Source: Pseudoclavibacter terrae | Lineage (GTDB): Bacteria; Actinomycetota; Actinomycetes; Actinomycetales; Microbacteriaceae | Reading direction: 5' to 3' | Length of the DNA stretch: 64,000 nt | Assembly (NCBI RefSeq): GCF_008831075.1 | Contig: NZ_WBJX01000002.1 | Span: 620,001-684,000, forward strand | Part shown: piece after piece, positions 443 to 8,569 of the stretch | How positions within the stretch are numbered: the stretch's first letter is position 1 | Layout: every line of letters starts with the position of its first letter | Notes under the pieces: generated by a model | What the model was told of the DNA's origin: nothing | Databases searched by the model: none | What the model saw: only the letters and a program-made list of their open reading frames with translations | Program-made: the position numbers and the translations under genes

Positions 443-2542
443 CTAGACGTCGATGTCCGCTCGCGCGACCTGCTCGGATCCCTCGATGATGAACTCCTTG
501 CGCGGCGCCACATCGCTGCCCATGAGCAGGTCGAAGACGCGCTCCGCGTTGTGAGCGTCAGCGTTCGTGACTCGTCTCAGGAGGCGCGCGCTCGGGTCCA
601 TGGTCGTGTTCCAGAGCTGGTCCTCATCCATCTCGCCGAGGCCCTTGTACCGTTGGATGGGGTCCTGGTAGCGCTTGCCCTGCTTCTCGAGCTTCGCGAG
701 CAGCGTCTGCAGCTCCTTCTCGGAGTAGGTGTAGACCGTCTCGTTCGGCTTGCGGCCGGCGTGCATGATGACCACACGATGGAGGGGCGGGACGGCTGCG
801 AAGACGCGGCCCGCATCGAGCATGGGGCGCATGTAGCGGAAGAAGAGCGTAAGCAGCAGCGTGCGGATGTGCGCGCCATCGACGTCGGCGTCGCTCATCA
901 GGATGACCTTGCCGTAGCGGGCCTGGCCGATGTCGAAGCTCCGACCGGACCCCGCGCCGACGACCTGGATGATCGATGCGCACTCGGAGTTCGAGAGCAT
1001 GTCCGAGATCGAGGCCTTCTGCACGTTGAGGATCTTGCCGCGGATGGGCAGCAGGGCCTGGAACTCCGAGTTGCGCGCCGGCTTCGCCGTGCCGAGCGCG
1101 GAGTCCCCCTCCACGATGAACAGCTCGCTCTGAGCCACGTCGTTCGACCGGCAGTCGACGAGCTTCGTCGGCAGCGAGGAGCTCTCGAGCGCGTTCTTGC
1201 GCCGCTGCGTCTCCTTGTGGGCACGCGCGGAGAGGCGGGACTTCATCTCCTGCACGACCTTGTCGAGCAGGAGGTTCGTCTCAGCCTTGTCCTGGCGCTT
1301 CGTGGAGGCGAACTTCTCCGTCAGGCCGGCCGTCACGGCCTTCTGCACGATGGCCCGCGCCGCGGGTGTCCCGAGCACCTCCTTGGTCTGCCCCTCGAAC
1401 TGCGGCTCAGGGATGCGGACCGTCACGACGGCGGTGAGTCCGGCGAGGACGTCGTCCTTGTCGAGCTTGTCGTTGCCGACTTTCAGGCGCCTGGCGTTCT
1501 TCTCGACCTCTGCGCGGAAGAAGCGGAGCATGCCCTGCTCGAAGCCCGCGAGGTGAGATCCGCCCTTCGGTGTCGAGATGATGTTGACGAAGCTCTTCAC
1601 GTTGGTCTCGTACCCGGTTCCCCAGCGGAGCGCGAGGTCGACGTGCATCGTCCTCGCCACCTCTTTCGTCACGAGCTGGAGGCCTTCGTCGTCGAGCACG
1701 GGGATGGTCTCGGTGAACTCCCCGCTTCCTTCGATGCGCCACGTGTCCGTCGTGGGGGCGTCAGGGGCGAGGAAGTCGGCGAACTCGGTGATGCCGCCGT
1801 CGAACCGGAACCGCTGCGTCGTCGGCTCAGCCGACTCGTCGCGCGCGTCCTCGATCACCATCTCGAGTCCGGGCACCAGGAAGGCGGTCTGCCTCGCACG
1901 CTCGGCGAGGTCGTTCGTCTGGAAGCTCGCCTCGCGGATGAAGACCTGCGGGTCGGCCCAGTACCGCACTCTCGTTCCCGTGACGCCTCGCTTCGCCTTC
2001 CCGACGACCCGGAGCTCGCTGGTGCTGGTGAACGGGATGAAGTTCGACGTCGGGCTCGGCCCGTCTGGCCCGTCCTCGAAGACTCCGGGCTCACCCCGGC
2101 GGAAGCTCATCGCGTAGGTCTTGCCACCGCGGTCCACCTCGACGTCGAGGCGAGCGGACAGCGCGTTCACGACGGATGCGCCAACGCCGTGGAGGCCACC
2201 GGCGGACCCGTAGTTGCTCGCGCCGAACTTGCCACCGGCGTGCAGCTTCGTGAAGACCACCTCGACACCGCTGAGACCGGTCTTCGGCTCGATGTCGACG
2301 GGAACCCCACGTCCGTCATCGTCGACGCTGACCGACCCGTCGCTGTGCAGCTGGACGCGGATGCGGGAGCCGTGACCCGCCAGGGCCTCGTCGACGGAGT
2401 TGTCGATGATCTCCCACAGGCAGTGCATGAGACCCCGGGAGTCGGTCGACCCGATGTACATGCCCGGCCTCTTCCGAACCGCATCGAGCCCATCGAGCAC
2501 CGACAGGTGTCTGGCTGAGTATGCGTCTCCGGAATTCGCCAC
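443..2542 (-). CDS. parE: DNA topoisomerase IV subunit B (GyrB/ParE family)
   Basis: A 699-residue type IIA topoisomerase ATPase subunit. The N-terminus has the GHKL ATP-binding fold (RPGMYIGST, EIIDNSVDEAL, DDDGRGVPVD, GLHGVGASVVNALS). The TOPRIM domain shows IVEGDSAL and DADVDGAHIRTLLL, and the C-terminus has the IQRYKGLGEMD motif. It would hydrolyse ATP to drive strand passage with the convergent A subunit. Start: the frame is closed by a TGA shortly upstream, leaving GTG at 2542 with AAGGA about 12 nt upstream. An ATG at 2572 lies in another frame, so the N-terminus is slightly uncertain. A possible -10 (TACGCT on the minus strand near 2622-2627) would give a leader of about 70 nt. Confidence 0.88.
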   Translation of the reverse strand: MANSGDAYSARHLSVLDGLDAVRKRPGMYIGSTDSRGLMHCLWEIIDNSVDEALAGHGSRIRVQLHSDGSVSVDDDGRGVPVDIEPKTGLSGVEVVFTKLHAGGKFGASNYGSAGGLHGVGASVVNALSARLDVEVDRGGKTYAMSFRRGEPGVFEDGPDGPSPTSNFIPFTSTSELRVVGKAKRGVTGTRVRYWADPQVFIREASFQTNDLAERARQTAFLVPGLEMVIEDARDESAEPTTQRFRFDGGITEFADFLAPDAPTTDTWRIEGSGEFTETIPVLDDEGLQLVTKEVARTMHVDLALRWGTGYETNVKSFVNIISTPKGGSHLAGFEQGMLRFFRAEVEKNARRLKVGNDKLDKDDVLAGLTAVVTVRIPEPQFEGQTKEVLGTPAARAIVQKAVTAGLTEKFASTKRQDKAETNLLLDKVVQEMKSRLSARAHKETQRRKNALESSSLPTKLVDCRSNDVAQSELFIVEGDSALGTAKPARNSEFQALLPIRGKILNVQKASISDMLSNSECASIIQVVGAGSGRSFDIGQARYGKVILMSDADVDGAHIRTLLLTLFFRYMRPMLDAGRVFAAVPPLHRVVIMHAGRKPNETVYTYSEKELQTLLAKLEKQGKRYQDPIQRYKGLGEMDEDQLWNTTMDPSARLLRRVTNADAHNAERVFDLLMGSDVAPRKEFIIEGSEQVARADIDV

Positions 2543-2745: not shown

Positions 2746-3444
2746 GTGCAGACTCCCGAGCCGGTGCGCAGACGCATCCACATCGATCTTCGCGCGATCC
2801 GCGACAACTCGACCCGCCTCCTCGGGTCGGAGACCGCCAGCTATGCAGACCTCCGCGCGGACGCGTACGGACACGGAGCGGTCCGCGTCGCCGAGGCCCT
2901 CGACGCCGAGGGGTACGAGGGCTTCGTCGTCTCCCGCGAGCTCGACCGTGCGGCCCTGTCCCATCTGAGCACCCCGCTGCTCGACGCGGATGCCGTCAAC
3001 TCGGACAGGATCACGGGCGGTTCGCTCTTCGGGCTCTCGGATCGCGCGTATCGACCCGCGATGCGGGTCAGCGCCGAGGTCCTCGCTGTCAAGGACGTCC
3101 AGGCGGGTGAAGGCGTGTCCTACGGGTACAGCTACGTCACCACCGAGCAGACGCAGCTCGCGTTGGTCGGCGTCGGGTACGCGCACGGCGTCGTCCGACG
3201 CGCGTCGAACACGGCGCCCGTGCTCATCGGCGGAGCGACTCGCACCATCGTCGGGGCCATCTCCATGGACCAGTTCTCGGTCGACCTGCATGGTGCCGAG
3301 GTCTCGCCTGGGGACCTTGCGATCCTCTTCGGCGATCCGGCGAGTGGCGAGCCGAGCATCTTGGACTGGCAGCACGCGACGGGTCTCAGAGCCGCTGCGA
3401 TCGCCAGCCGGATGAGCCCGCGATTCGAACGGAGCTACACATGA
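2746..3444 (+). CDS. Half-size alanine-racemase-like subunit, lysine lost, tyrosine kept
   Basis: A 232-residue protein clearly related to fold-type III alanine racemase but about 130 residues shorter than the family. The N-terminus aligns (IDLRAIRDN, LRADAYGHG), but the PLP lysine is Arg37. Most of the barrel, with the usual KxDTG Arg and VRxGI segments, is missing. The C-terminal beta domain is well kept: VSYGYSY, GVGYAHGVVRR with Tyr145 at the position of catalytic Tyr265', and GAISMDQ. Start: GTG 2746 with AGAGAGGG about 7 nt upstream; TAGCCT at 2706-2711 is a likely -10. Its stop overlaps the next start as ATGA, implying translational coupling. Alone it should not bind PLP as an aldimine. 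I infer that it supplies the tyrosine to its partner's active site. Confidence 0.8.
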   Translation: MQTPEPVRRRIHIDLRAIRDNSTRLLGSETASYADLRADAYGHGAVRVAEALDAEGYEGFVVSRELDRAALSHLSTPLLDADAVNSDRITGGSLFGLSDRAYRPAMRVSAEVLAVKDVQAGEGVSYGYSYVTTEQTQLALVGVGYAHGVVRRASNTAPVLIGGATRTIVGAISMDQFSVDLHGAEVSPGDLAILFGDPASGEPSILDWQHATGLRAAAIASRMSPRFERSYT

Positions 3445-4493
3445 GCGGTGCCGTCGCGCACGTCGACCTCGACGCAATCAGCCAGAACATCCGCACGCTC
3501 GGCGCCCTCGCGCCGCGGTCGCAGTTCATGCTCGCGGTGAAATCGAATGCGTACGGCCACGGTCTGCACGAGGTGGTCCGCACTGGCCTCGGCGCGGGCG
3601 TTTCCTCGTTCGGCGTCCTCGAGACGACTGCGGGGATCGCCCTGCGCGCGTCCGGGGTCGAGGTGCCGGTATTCGCCTGGATGCACGGGCACGGCACCGA
3701 TTTCGCCGCCGCGGCCGAAGCGCGGGTCGACCTGGGTGTGCAGACGTTCTGGCAGCTCGAGGCGATCGCGGCCTCCGGGTCCAGCGTCCGCCCGCGCGTG
3801 CACCTGAAGATCGACACCGGCCTGCACCGTGGCGGCGCGGACCGCCCGCGCTGGGCCGAGTTCGTGACCGAGGCGCTTCGCCTGCAGGCGCTCGGGAAGC
3901 TCGAAGTCGTCGCCGCCTGGAGCCACCTCTCCGACACATCGCACAGCGCCGATCTCGCATCGACGCGGCTGTTCAGCGCGGCGGTCGACGAGGCCCGGTC
4001 GCTCGGCGCCGAGTTCGAGCTGCTGCACCTCGGCGCGAGCGCTGCCGTGATCGATCTCCCTGAGGCGCACTTCGACCTCGTGCGGGTGGGCATCGCCGCC
4101 TACGGCATCTCACCATTCGACGACCGCAGCGCCGCGGACCTCGGCTTGCGTCCTGCCATGCAGCTGCGGGCGCCGGTGCTCGACGCACGACACGGGCTGG
4201 CCAGCATCGCCGTCGGGTTCGGAGACGGCATCCAGTCCGACCCTGCCGCAGCGGCCTTCGTCGTCGTGGATGGACATGCGGCGCCCGTCATCGAAGTCGG
4301 CGTCGACGAGACGGTCGTCGCGTTGCCGCCGGCAGCGGGAGCAGTCGCGGCCGGCAGCGAGTGCATCGTGTTCGGGGACGGTTCCCGTGGCGAGGCGACG
4401 GCCGAGCAGTGGGCCAGCTGGGGCGGAACGGTCGGCGACGAGATCGTGACCGGGCTCACCGGGCGCGTTCGACGCCAGTTCGCCGGTTCCTGA
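3441..4493 (+). CDS. Alanine-racemase-like large subunit, lysine kept, tyrosine lost
   Basis: A 350-residue fold-type III PLP enzyme of normal racemase length. It has the PLP lysine (AVKSNAYGHG, Lys34), the carboxylate-binding arginine motif (LKIDTGLHR, Arg130), WSHLSDT (the His166 region) and VRVGIAAYGI (the Arg219 region). The C-terminal domain is degenerate: the catalytic GYADG becomes GFGDG (Phe260), and the CMDQ motif becomes GVDE. The missing tyrosine is the residue kept by the upstream 232-residue protein, whose stop codon overlaps this start by 4 nt. In the family the lysine comes from one subunit and the tyrosine from the other, so an obligate heterodimer is the natural reading. The substrate could be alanine or another amino acid; the sequence does not say which. 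Confidence 0.82.
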   Translation: MSGAVAHVDLDAISQNIRTLGALAPRSQFMLAVKSNAYGHGLHEVVRTGLGAGVSSFGVLETTAGIALRASGVEVPVFAWMHGHGTDFAAAAEARVDLGVQTFWQLEAIAASGSSVRPRVHLKIDTGLHRGGADRPRWAEFVTEALRLQALGKLEVVAAWSHLSDTSHSADLASTRLFSAAVDEARSLGAEFELLHLGASAAVIDLPEAHFDLVRVGIAAYGISPFDDRSAADLGLRPAMQLRAPVLDARHGLASIAVGFGDGIQSDPAAAAFVVVDGHAAPVIEVGVDETVVALPPAAGAVAAGSECIVFGDGSRGEATAEQWASWGGTVGDEIVTGLTGRVRRQFAGS

Positions 4494-4508
4494 CGAAGCC
4501 CGGCCCAT

Positions 4509-4536
4509 GCCGGGGCGTGCCCGAGCACGCCCCGGC
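4509..4536. terminator. Hairpin between convergent racemase and GatD-like genes
   Basis: A perfect 12-bp stem (GCCGGGGCGTGC and complement) with loop CCGA lies between the stop codons of the convergent genes. It has no clear T-run, so it may be a shared terminator or an end-protecting hairpin. Confidence 0.6.
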
Positions 4537-4541
4537 GAAGG

Positions 4542-5300
4542 TCAGGAAGTCGGCGTCGTCACTCCGATGCGCCGCATGAGCGCGAGGCGGGCGTTCTCGG
4601 ACCACGAATCGAGGCGAGCGAGTTCGTCTCCCCCGTCGCCGAGGCTCCTGTCGGGGTCGCGGCGCTGCAGCGCCCGCTCGAGCAGGTGGTCAGCCAGCGC
4701 CGGGTTCAGCGCGAGAATCGGCCCGTGCAGATGCGTTCCGATCGCGGCCTCGTGCCTGATGCCCTCGAGCCCCGAGTTCTCGGCCGCCGAACCGCCGTTG
4801 CCGAAGCCCCGCACGATCTCTCCGAGCGCTTCAGCACCCGCATCGAGTGTTGTCAGCGCGTTGTGGTTCGCGAATCCCGCGATGAGCCCGTCCCCGGTGC
4901 GCACGACGGTTTCCGCGACGCTCTGGGACGGCTCGCGAACCGCCCTCGAGGCGAAGACGCCGAGGCCTTCGAGCTCGCCGTCATCATGCGTGATGCGGGA
5001 GCCGAGCAGCTCCCAGCCGCCGCCGATCGCCAGCAGCGGTGCCCCTGCCGCCGCGAGTTCGCGCAGCTGCTCCGCATGCCGCAGCGCGTCCGCCTGCACG
5101 GTCTGCACGGCCGCGAGTGGGCCAGAGCCGACGTGGATGAGGTCGACGGCCTCTGGCAGCGCCGGTGTGCCGCGTCCGACATTGACGATCTCGACGTCGA
5201 GCCCCCGCGCACGCGCACGCTTGGCGAGCACCGTCACATTGCCGACATCCCCGTTGATCCCGAGCTCGACCGGGTAGAGGTGCGCGATCCGCAGCTTCAT
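4542..5300 (-). CDS. GatD-like amidotransferase-fold protein lacking the catalytic cysteine
   Basis: A 252-residue class I glutamine amidotransferase-like protein of the GatD (CobB/CobQ-like) family, partner of MurT. Family landmarks are present: NGDVGNVTVL near residue 17, the GFANHN segment, GFGNG, and GTHLHGPIL with the catalytic-position His192. In GatD the nucleophile sits in ICGGYQLLG; here the segment reads IGGGWELLG, with GGC (Gly93, bases 5022-5024) replacing cysteine. It should therefore be unable to release ammonia from glutamine. Its start overlaps the murT-like stop by 4 nt, so the two are translated together. It may now be a structural partner, or may bind a different amine donor. 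Calling it an active isoglutaminyl synthase subunit would be wrong on sequence. Confidence 0.82.
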   Translation of the reverse strand: MKLRIAHLYPVELGINGDVGNVTVLAKRARARGLDVEIVNVGRGTPALPEAVDLIHVGSGPLAAVQTVQADALRHAEQLRELAAAGAPLLAIGGGWELLGSRITHDDGELEGLGVFASRAVREPSQSVAETVVRTGDGLIAGFANHNALTTLDAGAEALGEIVRGFGNGGSAAENSGLEGIRHEAAIGTHLHGPILALNPALADHLLERALQRRDPDRSLGDGGDELARLDSWSENARLALMRRIGVTTPTS

Positions 5301-6580
5301 GAGTTGACCTTCCCCTCGATGCCGGACTGCCCGAGGCGGCGCCGGATCGACATCATCTGCTCGTAGTTCACGATCATCGTCTTCATGCCCCGGCTCGGCT
5401 TCGGCAATGCGAGGAACCTGTCGAGGGCTTCACCCAGGTTCGGCTCGACGTGTCCCACCGGGATGTCCCCGTAGCCGAGGCGCGTCGCGATCTGCCAGGC
5501 CTTGGTACCGGAGACCACGTCGACGTGGTCGAGCCTGCTCAGGTCGGCGCCGAAGATCCATGAGGGGTCTGGCGTGCCCTCGTCGACGGAGACGAAGACC
5601 TGTTCAGGTGCCTCCTCGAGCGCATCCAGGTTCATCTGGAGGCTCGGCGGGTTCTTCATCATGATGATCTCGATGTCCTCACCGCGAACACTCATGACCT
5701 CGCCGCGCCCGTAGACGGTCTGCGATTCGCCGAGTGCCTCTGCGACGAGGGCGGGCACGAAGGAGTCTCCGAGGATGCGCTGCGCGGTCGCAGCTGCGCC
5801 GGCCGCGTCGAGGGCGTAGTGGAGGCCGCGCGCGGGCAGCTTGATGGCGAGTTCGTCGTCGCCGATGCGAAGCGTCGCGTCTCGCCCTCTCAGCGCGACG
5901 ACCTGCACCGCGCGCTCGCCGGCGGCGACCTCCACGCTCGCGGCGGAGATGTCATCGAAGTTGGAAAGACCGTTTGGGGACTGCTCGATCAGTTCCGGGG
6001 CCACGCCGAACCAGGTCACTGGCGCATCCAGCGATGGCGGCAGGCTCCGCAGCGAGGCATCGTCGGCGTTGAGCACGCTGAAGTCGCCGCACGCCGCCGC
6101 GATGGTGCGGAGGAACTCCGTCACTCGCGATGGGTCGTAGAAGCGGTTCAGCTGGTCGACCTGCACGTTGAGCAGCAGCACGCCGCGCGGATGCAGGTGT
6201 GCGAGCAGCCTCGGCCCGTAGGCCTCATCAACCTCGAGGACCGCGATGTCAGCGCGCAGATTCCCGTTGACGTCGACGTCGGGAAGCATCGACGACGCGA
6301 TGCCCTGCGGCAGGTTTCCACCCGAGGAGTTCGTGAAAACGCGGAGACCGTGGCGGCGCAGCATCCTGGTCAGGAAGTGCGTCGTCGTGGACTTCCCGTT
6401 CGAGCCGGAGACGAAGATGACGCCGAGTGGAAGCTTCGCGACTGCCGTCTCGAGGAAGTCTGGAGAGATGGCGAGTGCCACCCTGCCTGGGACCGCGGAG
6501 CCACCCCCGCGGAGCCGCATCGCCCCGCGCGCGCTCCGTCCGAGACCGACGGCGATCATCCGCCGCAGCTTGCCACCCAT
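5297..6580 (-). CDS. MurT-like Mur ligase without the zinc ribbon
   Basis: A 427-residue Mur-ligase-family protein with a DUF1727-like C-terminal domain, the architecture of MurT, which activates the alpha-carboxyl of D-Glu in lipid II with ATP. It has the P-loop SGSNGKSTT (about 58-66) and the Mur motifs EVDEAYGPRLL and NVQVDQLNRFYD. MurT normally carries a Cys4 zinc ribbon in the middle domain; here the equivalent region (after TWFGV) has no cysteine, and the whole protein has a single Cys. The DUF1727 region is also divergent (VDEGTPDPSWIFGAD). Start: ATG 6580 with GGGAG 5 nt upstream; the in-frame GTG at 6586 would overlap that site. It overlaps the GatD-like gene by 4 nt. Together they look like a repurposed MurT/GatD pair. 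Confidence 0.82.
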   Translation of the reverse strand: MGGKLRRMIAVGLGRSARGAMRLRGGGSAVPGRVALAISPDFLETAVAKLPLGVIFVSGSNGKSTTTHFLTRMLRRHGLRVFTNSSGGNLPQGIASSMLPDVDVNGNLRADIAVLEVDEAYGPRLLAHLHPRGVLLLNVQVDQLNRFYDPSRVTEFLRTIAAACGDFSVLNADDASLRSLPPSLDAPVTWFGVAPELIEQSPNGLSNFDDISAASVEVAAGERAVQVVALRGRDATLRIGDDELAIKLPARGLHYALDAAGAAATAQRILGDSFVPALVAEALGESQTVYGRGEVMSVRGEDIEIIMMKNPPSLQMNLDALEEAPEQVFVSVDEGTPDPSWIFGADLSRLDHVDVVSGTKAWQIATRLGYGDIPVGHVEPNLGEALDRFLALPKPSRGMKTMIVNYEQMMSIRRRLGQSGIEGKVNS

Positions 6581-6807
6581 GCACACTCCCGTTTCCGCGC
6601 ACTGCCTGCGCTGTCGTCGAAGCGACGAGAATCCCCCGTCTCGCCGACCGCCGCAAGTATCTCATGGGCCCGCCACGCGGCGACTGACGTCACCCGGGCC
6701 GGAGGCGGCTACGCGCAGGGCGAACCTGGCCCCTCGAATCACGCGGAACCCCGGCTCGCGTGCTCTAATTGTCGTGATCGCAAGATCACCGAAGCTTTGG
6801 AGGCATC

Positions 6808-7159: not shown

Positions 7160-8569
7160 CTACTCGAGGTAGTCGCGCAGCGACTGCGAACGCGACGGGT
7201 GGCGCAGCTTGGCCATGGTCTTCGACTCGATCTGGCGGATGCGCTCGCGAGTGACGCCGAACGTGTCGCCGATCTGGTCGAGCGTCTTCGGCATGCCGTC
7301 GCCGAGGCCGAAGCGCATGCGGATCACTCCAGCCTCACGCTCCGCGAGCGAGTCGAGGAGCGATTCGAGCTGACGCTGGAGCATGGTGAAGCTGACGGCG
7401 TCCGCAGGGACGACAGCCTCGGTGTCCTCGATGAGGTCTCCGAACTCGCTGTCACCGTCCTCACCGAGCGGCGTGTGCAACGAGATCGGCTCGCGGCCGT
7501 ACTTCTGCACCTCGACGACCTTCTCAGGCGTCATGTCGAGCTCCTTGGCGAGCTCTTCTGGCGTGGGCTCGCGGCCGAGGTCCTGCAGCATCTGACGCTG
7601 GACTCGGGCGAGCTTGTTGATGACCTCGACCATGTGCACCGGGATGCGGATCGTGCGCGCCTGGTCTGCCATGGCTCGCGTGATCGCCTGACGGATCCAC
7701 CAGGTGGCGTAGGTCGAGAACTTGAAGCCCTTCGTGTAGTCGAACTTCTCGACGGCACGGATGAGGCCCATGTTTCCCTCCTGGATGAGGTCCAGGAACT
7801 GCATTCCGCGCCCCGTGTAGCGCTTCGCGAGGCTGACGACGAGACGGAGGTTCGCTCCGAGGAGGTGGCTCTTCGCGCGGTCGCCGTCACGGGCAACCCA
7901 CTTCAGCTCGCGAACAAGCTGCTTGTCGAGCTCGCCCTCTTGCTCCTTGAGCTTCTCCGCGGCGAACAGTCCGGCCTCGATGCGCATGGCGAGGTCGACC
8001 TCTTCTGCCGCGTTCAGCAACGCGACCTTTCCGATCTGCTTGAGGTAGTCCTTGACCGGGTCGGCGGTCGCGCCCGTGATGGCAGCGGAATAGACCGGAG
8101 TCTCTTCCTCATCGTCGCTCGGCGTGAGGACGATCGCACCCTGGACGCGTGCCTTCTCGGCGTCAGCCTTGGCGTCCTTCGGATCGGCGGGCTTCACCGA
8201 GTCGTCATCGGACTCCGGGCTGTCGGCGACATCCGCGTCCTGGTCGACTTCTTCGATCTCAGCCTCGTCGACGCCGTCTTCTGGCTCGTCGCCGTCGACC
8301 TTCTTCTTCGCAGCTGCGCGCTTGCGAGGCGCCGCCTTCGCGGGTGCGCCATCGGCGGCAGCGGCAGCCTTGCGCTTCGCGGGCGCGCGCTTGGCGGCGG
8401 GCTTCTTCGCCGTCGCGGCGTCGTCAGTGGTGCTCTCGGTCTCGGCTGCGGCGCTTGCGTCGGCGCTCGCGTCCTTGACCGGCGTCGCGCGCTTGCGCGC
8501 TGGCGCCTTCTTGATGACTTCCTCGGTTGCTTCTGCAGTAGCCGTGGTAGCTCCCGTGCGTGTCGCCAT
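7160..8569 (-). CDS. rpoD: Primary sigma factor (RpoD/SigA)
   Basis: A 469-residue group 1 sigma factor. The first 150 or so residues are an Ala/Lys/Asp-rich extension typical of actinobacterial SigA/HrdB. Region 1.2 begins at [13 protein letters not shown]. Region 2 contains [35 protein letters not shown] and the -10-reading segment [19 protein letters not shown]. Region 3 and region 4.2 follow, with [20 protein letters not shown] reading the -35. It directs core RNA polymerase to housekeeping promoters, many of which in this window are TAnnnT boxes just before start codons. Start: ATG 8569 with GAGGGG about 8 nt upstream. Confidence 0.96.

Follow-up and report, generated by a model that had tools for sequence, protein, structure and literature searches.

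Among the described systems closest to the locus treated here are the alanine racemase Alr and the lipid II isoglutaminyl synthase MurT/GatD of Staphylococcus aureus and Streptococcus pneumoniae. Alr is a fold type III homodimer with two shared active sites, each of which combines a Lys from one chain with a Tyr from the other. MurT/GatD pairs a Mur ligase with a GATase_3 partner; a triad of GatD C94 and H189 with MurT D349 has been proposed, the GatD exchanges C94S and C94G are reported to abolish amidation of S. aureus lipid II, and the MurT zinc ribbon is described for only a subset of bacteria (PMC6113224). In a 64-kb stretch of the 3.9-Mb genome of Pseudoclavibacter terrae (C4:620001-684000; hereafter the window), relatives of both systems lie side by side. 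A preliminary description of this DNA had placed an altered racemase pair next to an altered MurT/GatD pair; all four genes were found and their alterations could be located. Their positions in the window are:

alr1, 2746..3444, plus strand: 232 residues, GTG start; the half of a split Alr-B racemase that has the Tyr but not the Lys
alr2, 3441..4493, plus strand: 350 residues; the other half of this racemase, with the Lys but without the catalytic-Tyr loop
gatD-like, 4542..5300, minus strand: 252 residues; GATase_3 protein with Gly in place of the glutaminase Cys
murT-like, 5297..6586, minus strand: 429 residues; Mur ligase without zinc ribbon

Alr-B denotes the clade of ALR2, whether split or whole. 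We favor, with moderate confidence, a reading in which the MurT-like ligase forms a group B cross-bridge by linking an amino acid to the α-carboxyl of D-Glu, with Alr-B supplying the D-form. Group B peptidoglycan was reportedly defined by Schleifer and Kandler in 1972.

Results

ALR1 and ALR2 each carry one side of a racemase active site

A family search finds Ala_racemase_C in ALR1 (E 2.3e-32) together with a 52-residue stub of Ala_racemase_N; the protein has an internal deletion and lacks most of the barrel. The position of the Lys that binds pyridoxal 5′-phosphate (PLP) is occupied by Arg (DLRADAYGHG), and the VSYG loop and the MDQ motif are retained. ALR2 contains both racemase domains (Ala_racemase_N, E 7.1e-48) and keeps the PLP Lys (AVKSNAYGHG); here it is the VSYG loop with the catalytic Tyr that is gone. 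Racemase pairs occur at 27 loci, 25 of which could be aligned as pairs. In these, ALR2 has the Lys in 25/25 and the VSYG motif in 0/25, and ALR1 has VSY in 25/25 and the Lys in 0/25 (Arg in 20, Gly in 3, Ser and Pro in 1 each, with the motif region absent from some rows). AlphaFold2 models of the two proteins, each computed as a single chain, are confident, with predicted local distance difference test scores of 92.7 (ALR1) and 93.2 (ALR2); their best Foldseek matches are the alanine racemases 1vfh (ALR1, E 7.9e-23) and 1vft (ALR2, E 6.6e-37).

The window racemase resembles Alr in fold and sequence and differs from it in being encoded by two genes, with one side of the site per chain and most of the barrel missing from ALR1. 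No chain holds both catalytic residues, which rules out two independent racemases; most likely, as judged from the sequences, ALR1 and ALR2 form one heterodimeric enzyme. What stands of the earlier reading of a racemase pair is its association with the ligase, which Alr-B accompanies in all seven comparable genera (see below); two separate racemases give way to what is most likely one heterodimer. A search of the open-licence literature for a heterodimeric alanine racemase returned nothing relevant in titles or abstract starts.

In a tree of the barrel domain the 25 ALR2 chains and one copy from each tandem alr pair (Clavibacter, Herbiconiux, Curtobacterium, Frigoribacterium, and Frondihabitans) form one clade with support 99/99. 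A second, quicker tree, to which ALR2 of nine named loci was added (Pseudoclavibacter, Leifsonia aquatica, Microcella, two Salinibacterium, two Agreia, Rhodoluna, and Cryobacterium), places 40/40 rows in one clade, with 99 in the Shimodaira-Hasegawa-like approximate likelihood ratio test (SH-aLRT). Alr-B is present in 15 of 16 named Microbacteriaceae genomes, split in 7 and whole in 8, and absent from Okibacterium. In other genera of the family it is an ordinary full-length protein at a tandem alr locus; although it belongs to the same clade as ALR2, it has both Lys and Tyr and stands beside another alr at a locus of its own. In the first tree Clavibacter, Herbiconiux, and Pseudoclavibacter were separated from the ornithine (Orn) and Lys genera, which suggested that Alr-B subclades correspond to diamino acids; this idea was dropped once Rhodoluna and Cryobacterium, both reported with 2,4-diaminobutyrate (Dab), fell on the Orn/Lys side of the second tree.

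The window genome encodes further racemases. At its glmS-tsaE site (L012:7848-9731, G000:C1), alr is a 627-residue fusion of a Lys-bearing half and a Tyr-bearing half, whose division of residues matches that of ALR1 and ALR2. By eye, alr frames of 629 and 642 residues adjoin acpS/glmS-like genes in G018 and G147. A third racemase of the window genome (L013:7448-8965), beside an amino-acid permease frame, is a single chain of broad-specificity appearance with VGYERTH for VSYG. Two Agreia genomes (L244, L246) have a second, separate split alr pair, in whose ALR1-like half Thr replaces the PLP Lys. At least one further alr is found in 7/7 named genomes with the pair (itself split in the two Agreia), and a whole alr besides the pair in 4/5 small genomes (<2 Mb, completeness >90, whole pair found). 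These extra copies, present in most genomes, weaken the notion that the locus serves D-Ala supply alone, with G013 as a contrary case.

GatD lacks the glutaminase Cys and MurT keeps its ATP site

The GatD-like protein belongs to GATase_3 (E 1.2e-14) and matches S. aureus GatD in phmmer at E 1.4e-26. The ligase has Mur_ligase_M (E 9e-9) and MurT_C (E 1.7e-5) domains and matches MurT of PDB entry 6fqb at E 3.9e-26. Both proteins stay below the NCBIfam equivalog cut-offs (MurT NF045635, 97 bits with a cut-off of 800; GatD NF045636, 82 bits with a cut-off of 400). Cys94 of GatD (S. aureus numbering) is replaced by Gly (LAIGGGWELLG), and His189 is retained (GTHLHGP). MurT lacks the zinc ribbon and has Gly for Asp355; its P-loop (GSNGKST) and the equivalent of Asp349 (DPSWI) are retained. 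Both subunits of the pair are homologous to those of the S. aureus and S. pneumoniae enzyme, with which the pair also has in common the ATP site and equivalents of Asp349 and His189; it differs from that enzyme in the Gly for Cys exchange, the missing zinc ribbon, ligase changes specific to its clade, and linkage to a racemase. The sole MurT_C match of the window genome is the window's own, which rules out a canonical MurT/GatD elsewhere in it.

The ligase changes are consistent across relatives. At least 95% of the 88 MurT rows of this clade and of 31 Cys-bearing sisters retain Gly and Lys of the P-loop as well as the equivalent of Asp349. Eleven positions differ between the two sets, each residue being present in at least 80% of its own set; two of these switches, G to S and R to Q, lie in the KNPAG region. 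By these residues MurT of this clade is not decaying. The ratio of nonsynonymous to synonymous substitution rates (dN/dS) is 0.02-0.16 for all four genes relative to two Pseudoclavibacter loci. Purifying selection acts on all four genes, and these ratios, together with the conserved residue patterns, make decay of the locus unlikely.

The alr1-alr2 pair on the plus strand and the murT-gatD pair on the minus strand are convergent, and the genes of each pair overlap in an ATGA. Three further features complete the site, the two flanking genes being named from sequence and motifs:

ParE/GyrB-type topoisomerase gene, 443-2542, minus strand
inverted repeat GCCGGGGCGTGC..GCACGCCCCGGC, 4509..4536, between the convergent gene pairs: terminator-like by eye
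RpoD-type sigma factor gene, 7160-8569, minus strand

The closest named relatives by MurT are Pseudoclavibacter sp. RFBB5 (99%) and AY1F1 (96%). Between the window and locus L150, murT (5297-6586) has a dS of 0.24 and three neighboring genes have 0.59-0.69; the low value of murT suggests a recombined tract.

Loss of the GatD Cys is widespread in Microbacteriaceae

GatD lacks the Cys in 100/113 Microbacteriaceae loci (94/107 distinct ones after removal of six named copies) and has it in 13; the His is lost in 44/113. In eight other families of the order the Cys is present in 29/29 loci. This control consists of the 30 best-scoring among 54 genomes that gave a match outside the family (149 searched with the canonical MurT model), one of which lacked GatD. 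Within the fetched stretch, a racemase pair accompanies 27/88 Cys-less loci (the window included) and 0/13 Cys-containing loci. All these phyletic counts ignore phylogeny.

A FastTree phylogeny of 159 MurT rows requires two changes of Cys state, counted without regard to direction; long branches, flagged by a program warning, include L295, L149, L303, and L126. One clade comprises 88 Microbacteriaceae rows (support 100). Another, with support 99, unites 17 Firmicutes and 12 Microbacteriaceae rows, most of them with zinc ribbons. The Firmicutes rows come from a family that includes a metagenome-assembled genome (MAG) named Eubacteriaceae, in which GatD lacks both Cys and His in 18/18 loci (17 distinct). 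In this family (L290-L305, L187, L188) MurT has the zinc ribbon, and G176 has at least three such pairs. The twelve Microbacteriaceae loci grouped with it (L136-L140, L142-L147, and L149, the last on a long branch) are glutaminase-dead, and the position of their MurT among Firmicutes sequences suggests transfer. In a review table Eubacterium is entered under type B2α in addition to A types (PMC11382707); the match between Cys-less GatD in this family and type B in Eubacterium is suggestive only.

A CofE-like ligase occupies the same site in genomes without MurT

A MurT match (E <1e-10) was found in 131 of 159 Microbacteriaceae genomes and in none of the remaining 28. A CofE-like protein (PF01996, the family of F420-0:gamma-glutamyl ligase) is present at E <1e-100 in 22/28 MurT-negative and 0/131 MurT-positive genomes; three weaker matches (1e-37 to 1e-45) are all in MurT-positive genomes. 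With kinship ignored, Fisher's test gives p 7e-22, or 1e-18 with the weak matches counted. Members of the CofE family link amino acids through amide bonds. In 13/13 loci where rpoD and parE could both be identified, the CofE-like gene is flanked by these two markers, as the window locus is; by eye, the same holds for 7 further loci. Although it shares this site, and often stands beside the same racemase pair, it has no sequence relation to MurT and is almost confined to MurT-negative genomes. The split racemase pair is found in 12/21 CofE-like loci, 7 of which were chosen for having it; the others have it in 5/14. The CofE-like loci (L320-L326, L331, L332, L334-L345) mostly also encode an ATP-grasp protein.

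Strong matches to that ATP-grasp family (PF14397) occur in 20/28 MurT-negative and 6/131 MurT-positive genomes, giving 20/159 genomes with CofE-like plus ATP-grasp and 6/159 with MurT plus ATP-grasp. Neither the CofE-like nor the ATP-grasp profile finds a match in the window genome, and there is no second ligase at its locus. To look for a distant MurT, a broad 18-row profile was run on 12 of the 28 MurT-negative genomes and gave matches of E 4e-26 or worse; many lie in clusters, and we read them as probably ordinary Mur ligases, so that a missed distant MurT was rejected for these 12 genomes.

Reported peptidoglycan types

Seven genera combine a locus with a diamino-acid report (Agreia, Frondihabitans, Frigoribacterium, Salinibacterium, Cryobacterium, Clavibacter, and Rhodoluna; Cryobacterium and Rhodoluna through MAGs only), and all seven have a Cys-less GatD and Alr-B. 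Table 3 of PMC7033078 gives D-Lys and type B2β for Frigoribacterium, Orn and B2β for Frondihabitans, Dab and B2γ for Cryobacterium, and Lys plus Orn with type B for Salinibacterium. Reports elsewhere give L-Dab connected to D-Orn for Agreia (PMC5945732), a D-Ala-D-Dab peptide of type B2β for Rhodoluna lacicola (PMC4156110), Dab and B2γ for Clavibacter (PMC5882085), and L-Lys, D-Orn, or Dab, depending on the species, for Microbacterium (PMC10757982). The genera of those tables without a named locus here are Glaciihabitans, Lysinibacter, Parafrigoribacterium, Homoserinimonas, Compostimonas, Subtercola, and Lacisediminihabitans. In the literature searched we found no report on the peptidoglycan type of Pseudoclavibacter and no paper on those of Okibacterium and Microcella; the cross-bridge diamino acid of Pseudoclavibacter we take to be Dab.

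The correlation of the locus with group A versus group B peptidoglycan was made at genus and family level. Of the genera with a diamino-acid report 7/7 are Cys-less, the other families of the order have the Cys in 29/29 loci, and 10/95 MurT-positive genomes of the family have only Cys-containing GatD. That no enzyme set had been described for this step is borne out among the titles and abstract starts listed from the open-licence literature: none is named there, and nothing relevant was listed on an enzyme attaching the group B bridge residue or on MurT/GatD in Microbacteriaceae.

Discussion

From the residue losses, their conservation and selection, the linkage, the phyletic patterns and tree positions, and the replacement by another ligase family, we infer substrates, heterodimer assembly, and bond chemistry as follows. 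The locus would make and attach the first residue of the group B cross-bridge. MurT would use ATP to activate the α-carboxyl of the stem-peptide D-Glu, as S. aureus MurT does, with the Cys-less GatD retained as a non-hydrolysing structural partner. The nucleophile would be the amino group of an amino acid, in this organism probably a D-diamino acid, rather than ammonia. ALR1 and ALR2 would assemble into a heterodimer with a single working site, to which ALR2 contributes the PLP Lys and the barrel and ALR1 the catalytic Tyr and Met, and which would convert an L-diamino acid to its D-form; the separate fused racemase at the glmS-tsaE locus would make D-Ala. The preliminary description had already suggested that the ligase joins an amino acid and not ammonia. 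Comparison supports this suggestion in part, in that the Cys is missing from most GatD proteins of the family and present in all 29 read from other families of the order, and Alr-B accompanies the ligase in the seven genera with a diamino-acid report. The ligase is not universal, a CofE-like protein, usually with an ATP-grasp ligase, taking its site in some genomes.

The alternative that survives best, which we nevertheless consider unlikely, is that the pair is an alanine racemase turned heterodimeric by neutral evolution, and that some other enzyme, such as the broad-type racemase at L013 or a Dab racemase of the DapF-like kind (for example PddB), provides the D-diamino acid, or that the bridge residue is not D. 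It draws on G013, which has the pair only, on the second alr locus split likewise in two Agreia genomes, on the broad-type racemase of the window genome, on Alr-B subclades that do not sort by diamino acid, and on the report of a PLP-independent Dab racemase (PMC8225329). Against this, a further alr is present in all seven named genomes with the pair and in four of the five small ones, and Alr-B is a clade of its own, largely linked to the ligase locus.

Some cross-bridges have two residues, as in Gly-Lys and Gly-Orn, and MurT/GatD might place a glycine or an L-amino acid on D-Glu, with a further ligase adding the diamino acid. Genomes that combine an ATP-grasp protein with MurT or with the CofE-like protein would suit such bridges, but the window genome matches neither the CofE-like nor the ATP-grasp profile and its locus contains no second ligase; for this locus we regard the scheme as improbable.

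Least credible, and in our view likewise improbable, is that the Cys-less MurT/GatD still amidates D-Glu with free ammonia or ammonia from another glutaminase: many amidotransferases accept free ammonia, and MurT keeps its ATP site and Asp349 equivalent, but the Cys-less state occurs in two separate MurT clades, in Microbacteriaceae and in the family with the Eubacteriaceae MAG, a CofE-like protein replaces the ligase in relatives, the ligase often stands beside a racemase, C94G abolishes the S. aureus reaction (PMC6113224), and type B is listed for Eubacterium beside type A (PMC11382707).

Several observations weigh against the proposal that MurT attaches a bridge amino acid supplied by Alr-B. 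No racemase pair lies within the fetched stretch in 61/88 Cys-less loci; some of these genomes have a whole Alr-B elsewhere and others a single alr, and G125, of the window's own genus, combines a Cys-less GatD with no pair in its fetched stretch. A single alr is no marker of a Cys-bearing GatD, being found in 8/8 surveyed genomes with only Cys-bearing GatD (of 10) and also in Cys-less genomes without the pair, such as G009, G011, G042, G058, G105, and G139. The broad-specificity-like third racemase of the window genome could make the D-diamino acid. In G013 (L126, 0.93 Mb) the sole PF00842 match is ALR1 of the split pair, beside a Cys-less MurT/GatD, so the pair must make D-Ala there or D-Ala must come from elsewhere. 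The second tree puts Rhodoluna and Cryobacterium, reported with Dab, on the Orn/Lys side, and the Alr-B tree therefore does not predict the diamino acid.

The ligase side has its own exceptions. Among 95 MurT-positive genomes with loci read (of 131), 85 are Cys-less and 10 have only Cys-containing GatD, and 6/159 genomes have neither MurT nor the CofE-like protein; if these exceptions have group B peptidoglycan, another enzyme must exist. About a tenth of Microbacteriaceae genomes do not fit. The order control leans toward canonical MurT forms. Peptidoglycan types were compared at genus level; for Pseudoclavibacter, Leifsonia, Herbiconiux, Curtobacterium, Okibacterium, and Microcella they are assumed. 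According to a review, some group A genera also have Gly or D-Ser on the α-carboxyl of D-Glu (PMC11555704), and a ligase of this type may thus occur outside group B as well.

A wider model accommodates the exchange of ligases, and we offer it tentatively, as possible but doubtful. The rpoD-parE site of Microbacteriaceae may be a cross-bridge cassette in which unrelated ligases swap: a glutaminase-dead MurT/GatD would add one residue (Dab, Orn, or Lys), and CofE-like and ATP-grasp proteins would together assemble bridges of two residues, such as Gly followed by Lys or Orn. The split Alr-B would be confined to genomes whose bridge has a D-diamino acid, and a second kind of glutaminase-dead MurT/GatD would belong to Firmicutes and have been passed to some Microbacteriaceae.

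Group B peptidoglycan serves the taxonomy of the whole family, and the literature searched does not name the enzyme for its bridge residue. If the proposed role of this locus is correct, the attachment step would be directly testable with few genes, and cross-bridge type would become predictable from genomes. The dead glutaminase, retained as partner of a ligase with a new target, would clearly exemplify the change from amidotransferase to amino-acid ligase, and an obligate heterodimeric Alr relative, split at two loci in Agreia and fused in the window genome, would represent a striking complementary decay within one active site.

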